From Granulicella sibirica (lineage in GTDB: Bacteria; Acidobacteriota; Terriglobia; Terriglobales; Acidobacteriaceae), in contig NZ_RDSM01000002.1 in NCBI RefSeq assembly GCF_004115155.1, positions 248,001 through 312,000 of the forward strand: DNA of 64,000 nucleotides, in the 5' to 3' direction. Shown here piece by piece: positions 5,920 to 60,511 of the stretch (the first letter of the stretch is position 1; every line of letters starts with the position of its first letter). A model generated the notes under the pieces. It did not search any database. It was not told the origin of the DNA and was given only the letters and a program-made list of their open reading frames with translations. Made by a program: the position numbers and the translations under genes.

Positions 5920-5931
5920 CGGAAGACAGCC

Positions 5932-5958
5932 GCAGATTCCCTTCGGGAATGACAACCA
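5932..5958 (+). repeat. Interspersed repeat, family 1, copy A
   Basis: Begins GCAGATTCCCTTCGGGAATG and ends in ACAACCA. ATTCCC-TTC-GGGAAT is a perfect 6-bp hairpin. Starts 13 bases after the gpmI stop codon. Five other copies are at 7429, 10235, 41877, 51201 and 60471. Confidence 0.85.
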
Positions 5959-7410: not shown

Positions 7411-7428
7411 AGCAAAGCGAAGGCAGAC

Positions 7429-7455
7429 GCAGATTCCCTTCGGGGATGACAACCA
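7429..7455 (+). repeat. Interspersed repeat, family 1, copy B
   Basis: Same as copy A except GGGGAT for GGGAAT, which turns one T-A pair of the hairpin into T-G and so keeps it foldable. Starts 19 bases after the HTH gene stop. Confidence 0.85.
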
Positions 7456-7496: not shown

Positions 7497-7545
7497 GCGT
7501 TCCAACTTTCCCGCGATGGTACCGCGCGGGAAAGATGGGGCACCC
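7497..7545 (+). repeat. Hairpin element with 9-nt loop, family 3, copy 1
   Basis: CTTTCCCGCG (7506-7515) pairs perfectly with CGCGGGAAAG (7525-7534) around a 9-nt loop, followed by ATGGGGCACCC. Related hairpins with different stem sequences but the same loop length and GGTGCCCC flank (here on the other strand) are at 41942 and 51271. Confidence 0.75.
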
Positions 7546-10226: not shown

Positions 10227-10234
10227 GAGCAAAT

Positions 10235-10261
10235 GCAGATTCCCTTCGGGAATGACAACCA
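10235..10261 (+). repeat. Interspersed repeat, family 1, copy C
   Basis: Identical to copy A over the 27-base core, starting 9 bases after the accB stop, between accB and accC. It is flanked by A-rich sequence with GCAAA and AAAGCAA. Confidence 0.85.
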
Positions 10262-41876: not shown

Positions 41877-41903
41877 TGGTTGTCATTCCCGAAGGGAATC
41901 TGC
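41877..41903 (-). repeat. Interspersed repeat, family 1, copy D (reverse)
   Basis: Reverse complement of copy A, identical over the core. Starts 19 bases after the DedA stop. Unlike copies A-C it points against the gene that it follows. Confidence 0.85.
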
Positions 41904-41941
41904 GTTTGCCTTGTCTCTCGCTAGACCCGTCAAAACCCAGC

Positions 41942-41987
41942 GGGTGCCCCACCTTCGGCACAGTTCCATCGTGCCTAAGGTGGGAGC
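41942..41987 (-). repeat. Hairpin element with 9-nt loop, family 3, copy 2
   Basis: CCCACCTTCGGCAC (41948-41961) pairs with GTGCCTAAGGTGGG (41971-41984), one C-T mismatch, 9-nt loop. The flank GGGTGCCCC at the left matches the other two copies. Between the DedA and pepA genes, which converge, it may also stop transcription. Confidence 0.8.
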
Positions 41988-51200: not shown

Positions 51201-51227
51201 TGGTTGTCATTCCCGAAGGGAATCTGC
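51201..51227 (-). repeat. Interspersed repeat, family 1, copy E (reverse)
   Basis: Reverse complement of copy A, identical core, 18 bases after the protease stop and again opposed to the gene it follows. Confidence 0.85.
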
Positions 51228-51270
51228 GTCTGCCGTTGCCGTTGTCCTTCGCCGAACAGCCCCGACGCAC

Positions 51271-51317
51271 GGTGCCCCGACTTCGCCGACAGCCTCACCG
51301 TCGGCTAAGGTGGGAGC
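51271..51317 (-). repeat. Hairpin element with 9-nt loop, family 3, copy 3
   Basis: CTTCGCCGAC (51281-51290) pairs with GTCGGCTAAG (51300-51309), one C-T mismatch at the same place as in copy 2, 9-nt loop AGCCTCACC. Flanked by GGTGCCCC on the left and GTGGGAGC on the right, as in copy 2. Confidence 0.8.
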
Positions 51318-60430: not shown

Positions 60431-60497
60431 CTTTGCCGTTGCCTTTGCCCTTTGGGTTGCCGTTGCCCTTTGGTTGTCATTCCCGAAGGGAATCTGC
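60431..60497 (-). repeat. Interspersed repeat, family 1, copy F, with GGCAAM-type tandem
   Basis: 60471-60497 is the reverse complement of copy A. Next to it (60431-60470) runs an imperfect tandem of TTTGCC and GTTGCC hexamers. It starts 14 bases downstream of the alcohol dehydrogenase gene, in the same direction as that gene. Confidence 0.85.
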
Positions 60498-60511
60498 GTT
60501 TGCCTTCCCGC

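Follow-up and report, generated by a model that had tools for sequence, protein, structure and literature searches.

GGTG-tagged hairpins of Granulicella sibirica, a probable REP-like family of miniature elements dispersed by RAYT transposases

Results

Three Hairpins and Their Neighboring Repeats

The window, a stretch of 64 kb from the Granulicella sibirica genome, contains three hairpins, each with a 27-base repeat termed family-1 (TTGTCATTCCCGAAGGGAATCTGCGT) close by, as the preliminary description had reported, and on the same strand. The features are as follows, with scores from the covariance model R1, which was built from 25 sequences.

5930-5955, (-) strand, family-1 repeat
7427..7452, (-) strand, family-1 repeat by hairpin copy 1, same strand, pattern match with 1 mismatch, gap 47 bases
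7500..7544, (-) strand, hairpin copy 1, arranged as GGTGCCCC-ATC-TTTCCCGCG-9 nt-CGCGGGAAAG; R1 46.9 bits, fold z -3.5
10233-10258, (-) strand, family-1 repeat
41880..41905, (+) strand, family-1 repeat by hairpin copy 2, same strand, exact match, gap 37 bases
41943..41985, (+) strand, hairpin copy 2; R1 64.5 bits, fold z -4.8
51204..51229, (+) strand, family-1 repeat by hairpin copy 3, same strand, exact match, gap 41 bases
51271..51315, (+) strand, hairpin copy 3; R1 66.6 bits, fold z -2.2
60474-60499, (+) strand, family-1 repeat

A hairpin is present at each of the three sites first described, all three being matched by R1 and folding better than dinucleotide shuffles, with 0/200, 0/200, and 7/200 shuffles folding as well for copies 1, 2, and 3, respectively. 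Copies 2 and 3 begin with a GGTGC tag and continue inward through an outer stem, a C.T mismatch, and a variable inner stem to a loop of 9 nt. The outer stem of copy 2 is CCCACCTT/AAGGTGGG and its inner stem GGCAC/GTGCC, and copy 3 has an imperfect outer stem with GCCGAC/GTCGGC as the inner stem. The stem of these two copies extends beyond what was originally described: the CCC of GGTGCCCC, together with the bases after it, pairs with RTGGG, so that the outer stem reaches up to 8 bp. Copy 1 is a divergent member without the C.T mismatch and with TTGG replacing GTGGG. PepA loci were considered as a possible empty site for copy 2 and rejected, with DedA, the neighbor in the window, found in 0/22 of the loci examined (of 80 PepA loci); GGTGCCCC was likewise absent within 450 bases downstream of PepA in these 22.

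Family Size, Form, and Spread

R1 matched the 6.14-Mb genome of the same strain 141 times at E <= 1, and removal of opposite-strand matches of the same hairpins and of those with E > 0.01 left 106 hairpin copies, the three in the window included. A first sequence pattern had found 35 copies, and its reversed form 0. The hairpin core measures 33-47 nt, most often 45 nt (58/106) or 43 nt (22/106). The typical unit reads GGTGC, CCCAYCTT, C, inner stem, loop, inner stem, T, AAGGTGGG, and A, and is followed on its 3' side by a looser C-rich tail resembling aCCCAAACCGCCCAAC. The tag bases G, G, T, G, and C are conserved in 96, 94, 92, 95, and 99% of the 106 copies, and the constant part of the family is the 5' flank GGTGCCCC, not the loop. 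The C.T mismatch, whose retention in copies 2 and 3 had been pointed out, is general in the family (72/106 copies). By a crude gene caller 91/106 copies are intergenic, 9 lie within genes in the sense direction, and 6 in antisense. Close neighbors (up to 200 bases apart) form direct pairs in 8/8 cases and inverted pairs in none.

The family pattern occurs in all 31 sampled genomes of the genus, with 2,154 matches, nested ones included, where the reversed pattern has 6. At E <= 1e-4, R1 matches 22 of 25 genus genomes, own genome included, and 0 of 16 outside the genus, and the copy number at this threshold spans 0 to at least 150 within the genus. Among the 80 PepA loci, taken from named public genomes, 14 carry looser hairpins, most of them in Acidobacteriaceae and some perhaps in the same genus. 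The outer stem varies in these loci (CCCGGGTCTC/GAGACCCGGG in L232, for example), and the constancy of GGTGCCCC there is no result since the search used GGTGCCCC itself. A literature search, judged by titles and the beginnings of abstracts, returned no prior description of this hairpin. A tandem array at L019 (1373-1672) has the family-1 repeat plus hairpin as a unit of ~127 bases and holds three hairpins, and in L044 (1399-1647) three hairpins are spaced 102 bases apart. In L016 (1501-1543) the C.T mismatch has become A.G (CTTAGGCAC...GTGCCGAAG), as if the stem alone had flipped.

Stem Covariation and Loop Length

The proposal of a covarying stem was borne out in the own genome and in relatives, with pairing exceeding that of shuffles. 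In an alignment of 98 distinct rows from the own genome, fitted to the R1 model and including one antisense match, 96.4% of cells are paired compared with 88.1% after shuffling. There are 94 double-change cells compared with 17.8 in shuffles, nine pairs show changes in both partners, and covariation scores 0.263 compared with 0.115, a signal that is lost on sliding the partners. Two checks did not depend on such fitting. Among 54 distinct ungapped copies of 45 nt in the own genome, inner pairing is 95.7%, the shuffled mean being 86.0% and the maximum 89.5% (5,000 shuffles). In 71 distinct hairpins of relatives (from G042, G003, and one row of G011), picked by GGTGCCCCAY...GTGGG only and scored on inner pairs outside that pattern with arms shuffled between copies, 93.2% of inner pairs are paired against a shuffled mean of 55.9% and a maximum of 66.2% (5,000 shuffles). 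The 18 distinct 5' arms of this set alone give 88% against a mean of 52% and a maximum of 73%. The GTGGG-ending filter was adopted after the result of an earlier set of 82 hairpins was known, which had 77% paired compared with 51% and in which many hairpins were truncated by nested pattern matches.

The loop fared differently. All three window copies have a 9-nt loop, and this is the commonest value in the own genome (49/106 by one counting rule), but loop lengths in the 71 relatives' hairpins vary widely, mostly from 3 to 12. Freely varying loops had been named beforehand as grounds for giving up the idea; the constant 9-nt loop is accordingly rejected as a family trait, and the claim for the stem survives. 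Strong conservation of pairing under sequence change means that the folded strand matters, as first argued. The choice then offered between selection on a fold and a relict of copying is nevertheless a false one, as the family looks like a mobile repeat that spreads in hairpin form, and the fold is most likely retained because a transposase reads the hairpin.

Association with One Type of RAYT Gene

Y1_Tnp is matched in 30 of 41 genomes, counting the own genome. The 55 matches in 24 genus relatives were divided into a first set of 19, one locus (the best match) from each of 19 genomes, and a second set of the remaining 36, which were typed by profiles built from the first. Taken together, hairpins lie within 700 bases of 25/28 genes of one RAYT type and of 0/27 other Y1 genes. 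In the first set GGTG hairpins are found within this distance at 11/19 loci, on both sides in 9, and these 11 loci encode the one RAYT type, whereas the other 8 proteins do not belong to it. The hairpin density at the first-set loci is 29 in 24.5 kb (1.19 per kb), compared with 30 in 252.5 kb (0.119 per kb) at 60 MnmG/AlaS loci. In the second set hairpins accompany 14/17 genes of the hairpin type, on both sides in 11, and 0/19 of other types; L382, L383, and L385, which are of the hairpin type, have none within 700 bases. Outside the genus 1/10 loci has a hairpin (L110), and its gene resembles the same type with a damaged frame. The NCBIfam family REP_Tyr_transpos is matched over its cut-off by 9 of 10 first-set proteins tested, including L094, which is without a hairpin, and among solved structures E. 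coli TnpA_REP (PDB code 4ER8; E 1.4e-9) is the closest. The hairpin label requires 2 changes on the RAYT tree compared with an average of 10 in shuffles, a tree compatible with one origin and with more than one, so that the hairpin RAYT type may or may not be a single clade. In the alignment with TnpA_REP, Trp-94 and Gln-95 are kept and Arg-104 is not. All three are among the GTAG-reading residues of TnpA_REP in the accessible part of PMC6006769, and the loss of Arg-104 would fit a tag other than GTAG.

At several RAYT genes the two hairpins of the flanking inverted pair have a stem type in common, and this type varies from one RAYT to another. The own genome has one broken RAYT of the hairpin type (L062), placed between two same-strand hairpins. 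On the tree it falls together with L107 (support 91/74), and the hairpins of L107 are of the same CTTCG...CTAAG mismatch class. The search of the own genome turned up no intact RAYT of this type, and with the only one found being broken, the copies there are probably now immobile; no insertion polymorphism was seen within the species. None of this type was found either in G005, a genome 93% complete with at least 150 hairpin matches.

The units are short, repeated, and palindromic, as would be expected of MITE-like remnants of another transposon, with the RAYT genes carrying them as bystanders. The three hairpin-type RAYTs lacking hairpins and the similar behavior of family-1 repeats, for which no RAYT link was found, agree with such an origin. 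A bystander would not be expected to be flanked in so type-specific a manner, however, nor would inverted pairs be expected to share a stem type RAYT by RAYT, and remnants of this kind are a very improbable source of the family.

Orientation and GC Skew

The GGTG strand is the C-rich strand at all 106 copies in the own genome, as judged from flanks of 200-1500 bases on each side. The signed skew has a median of 0.245 and a minimum of 0.014, and the rule holds for 104/106 left flanks alone and 105/106 right flanks alone. It extends to relatives (36/39 and 23/26) and to PepA loci of named genomes (21/25). Hairpins at RAYT loci follow it in only 20/30 cases, since the two members of an inverted pair cannot both obey. 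The orientation is independent of the direction of neighboring genes, and 17 copies with both neighbors antisense still obey. In sampled 20-kb segments the sign of the skew is mostly equal in genes of both strands, and gene direction therefore does not explain the orientation.

These data bear on a role in RNA. A host element at gene 3' ends, such as an mRNA stabilizer, terminator, or processing site selected on the transcript, would account for the conserved stem pairing and for the same-strand gene found 5' of the hairpin in 70/91 intergenic copies (40 convergent and 30 tandem, by crude calls). An orientation that tracks skew in every copy irrespective of the neighboring genes argues against it, as do the copies lying in frame within coding genes and the spread of copy number within one genus. 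In the window no terminator-like site was present at the three hairpins, and no Rfam family matched over its gathering cut-off. A host RNA function is not supported, and an element of this sort is an improbable explanation for the family.

The one-orientation rule suggests strand-specific, perhaps replication-coupled insertion. If the leading strand is G-rich, as leading strands tend to be, the GGTG strand would be the leading-strand template. The analogy with IS608 would predict the opposite strand if GGTG were the 5' guide. In G023, a single contig, skew is positive in 9/10 segments from the first half and negative in 8/10 from the second, a pattern that replication-linked skew would give, local exceptions aside. 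Of the flanks of rRNA operons, 9/10 downstream ones are G-rich on the rRNA strand, and 6/10 upstream ones are C-rich on it. Several side observations concern the skew itself. Sampled stretches of the own genome and of G023 form a mosaic of skewed segments in which gene strand mostly plays no part. Between ~12000 and 20000 in the window, the GC skew drops from +0.28 to below zero, and it lies at -0.2 to -0.28 farther along. In several genomes the sign flips across the rRNA operon (L341/L342, L345/L346, L351/L352, and L343/L344) in an origin-like manner, being negative upstream and positive downstream on the rRNA strand. In the own genome the flip coincides with both rRNA copies of one contig or precedes them by a few kb.

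The orientation might instead reflect nothing other than a C-rich target composition with no link to replication, which would otherwise be compatible with dispersal by RAYTs. Copies do lie in strongly skewed DNA (the median compares with 0.115 in background windows, from one contig), GGTGCCCC sites without a hairpin lean the same way (26/38), and targets with at least about 9 net C could also yield 106/106. The probability of 106/106 is ~10^-7.2 with a target of 4 net C and ~10^-3.7 with 6 net C, so a short C-rich target is unlikely to be the cause, and composition as the whole explanation is doubtful.

Family-1 repeats, with 130 copies at up to 3 mismatches in the own genome, obey the same rule in 56/56 copies of sampled own sequence, 16/16 of them away from hairpins, showing that the rule is not specific to the hairpin family. 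Based on 100 of the 130 copies, a family-1 repeat lies within 150 bases of 34/106 hairpins, compared with 0.75 expected at random, and is on the same strand in 34/34 of these pairs. A third repeat pattern gave an orientation count of 8/9, and a fourth had no copy. The family-1 repeat was considered as the partner of another RAYT and rejected, with no family-1-like sequence and no mobilizing enzyme for it found at the 13 Y1 loci examined (12 genes).

Copies within Protein-coding Genes

Eight copies are placed in frame and in the sense direction within long, high-GC3 genes. The length of each is a multiple of three, and all encode a peptide of the form GAP[PS]S...[KR]VG. Their hosts, identified over the NCBIfam cut-off, are AlaRS, MnmG (two copies), and PolX; GyrA and SMC are best matches under the cut-off, the protein being truncated by the locus edge. 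The remaining two, assigned by Pfam, are a PMT_2-type transferase (with a weak ArnT-like NCBIfam match) and an M1 peptidase. A ninth candidate (L023) may precede the true start. Orthologues were compared for AlaS and MnmG, and the three copies in these genes are absent from those examined. The AlaS orthologues L184, L190, L194, and L197 have no insert, a difference of ~24 residues, and at the second MnmG site a loop of 7 residues is present in 20/28 readable rows of relatives compared with 31 residues in the own protein.

Discussion

The hairpins are very probably REP-like miniature elements of the genus and its Acidobacteriaceae kin, dispersed by RAYTs. Like the REPs of E. coli and Pseudomonas with their RAYT/TnpA_REP genes (REPtrons), as far as these are described in the accessible parts of PMC3733652 and PMC6006769, they are short high-copy hairpins with a constant 5' tag that flank a Y1 RAYT gene and also occur within genes. 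High copy number, conserved stem pairing, RAYT flanking, and a mostly extragenic location are shared with REPs. The tag is GGTG where REPs have GT[AG]G, and the hairpins are not canonical GT[AG]G REPs. Inverted pairs (BIME/REPIN) are absent among the dispersed copies of the own genome, unlike REPs, and are present around the RAYTs of relatives, and the one-orientation rule relative to skew also differs from REPtrons. Overall, the family likely works like a REP/RAYT system. Several findings weigh against this reading: the GGTG tag, the direct instead of inverted close pairs, the three hairpin-type RAYTs with no hairpin nearby, the tree, the lack of an intact RAYT of the type in the own genome and of any in G005, a strand sign opposite to the IS608 analogy, an orientation rule shared with family-1 repeats, and the absence of an observed insertion polymorphism within the species.

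Related systems have been described in the same phylum. The accessible text of PMC3733652 places TIRtrons and TIRYT genes in Terriglobus saanensis, Granulicella mallensis, Koribacter versatilis, and Acidobacterium capsulatum, including a repeated family named for K. versatilis ORF 1552. TIRtrons resemble the present loci in having RAYT-like genes with inverted repeats on both sides. Some of their TIRs share GGGGWSAS in that account, which GGGGCACC, the GGTG tag reversed and the outer end here, does not fit. Compared by description, the hairpin family may coincide with these acidobacterial TIRtrons noted in 2013. The Class 3 TnpA_Y1 repeats, for example those of Solibacter, as outlined in PMC6006769, are similarly high-copy atypical hairpins beside Y1 genes in Acidobacteria, but with a 5' foot of CnGA compared with GGTG here.

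In the unit so defined, the conserved GGTGC tag on the 5' side is followed by a hairpin of ~10-15 bp, whose inner stem can change, and by the looser C-rich 3' tail. From comparative sequence data the family is probably mobile, most likely via a single-strand DNA transposase. We propose that the RAYT, an HUH Y1 single-strand nuclease/ligase, would recognize the tag and the folded hairpin in single-stranded DNA and would cut and paste the unit in a single orientation relative to the replication fork. Drift of the stem would be allowed only while both arms still pair, and new RAYT lineages would bring new stem types. Copies without an in-frame stop could persist in protein loops as short peptide inserts. 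It can be suggested, tentatively, that RAYT-driven spread of REPs in these bacteria is strictly one-orientation with respect to the fork, such that the repeats would record fork polarity across the genome, as well as subsequent inversions, and would repeatedly seed in-frame inserts in loops of essential proteins. The mode of REP movement has long been hard to demonstrate, and a type-specific RAYT, a constant tag, free stems, and an orientation without exception in the own genome make this a clean system in which RAYT action at the replication fork, and the strand acted on, are testable.

Beyond ordinary REPs, the family stands out in the strand rule holding for 106/106 copies and in the eight in-frame gene copies, in which REP-like DNA has come to encode part of housekeeping proteins in a soil phylum. 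REPs within genes and in-frame Rickettsia palindromic elements (RPE) are already reported in the accessible text of PMC3733652, making the present copies a striking instance and not a new principle. RPEs, as described there, are likewise palindromic repeats in frame within protein genes, but they have a CGTC tag and no associated transposase, compared with the GGTG tag and RAYT partner here. The AlaS of G016 (L180) has a GGTG-type insert, and other species carry different inserts at the same loops. Other repeat-like inserts (HSERSEE, HPERSGA, and RSAQND) are seen at the same loop positions in L185 (AlaS) and in L155 and L175 (MnmG).
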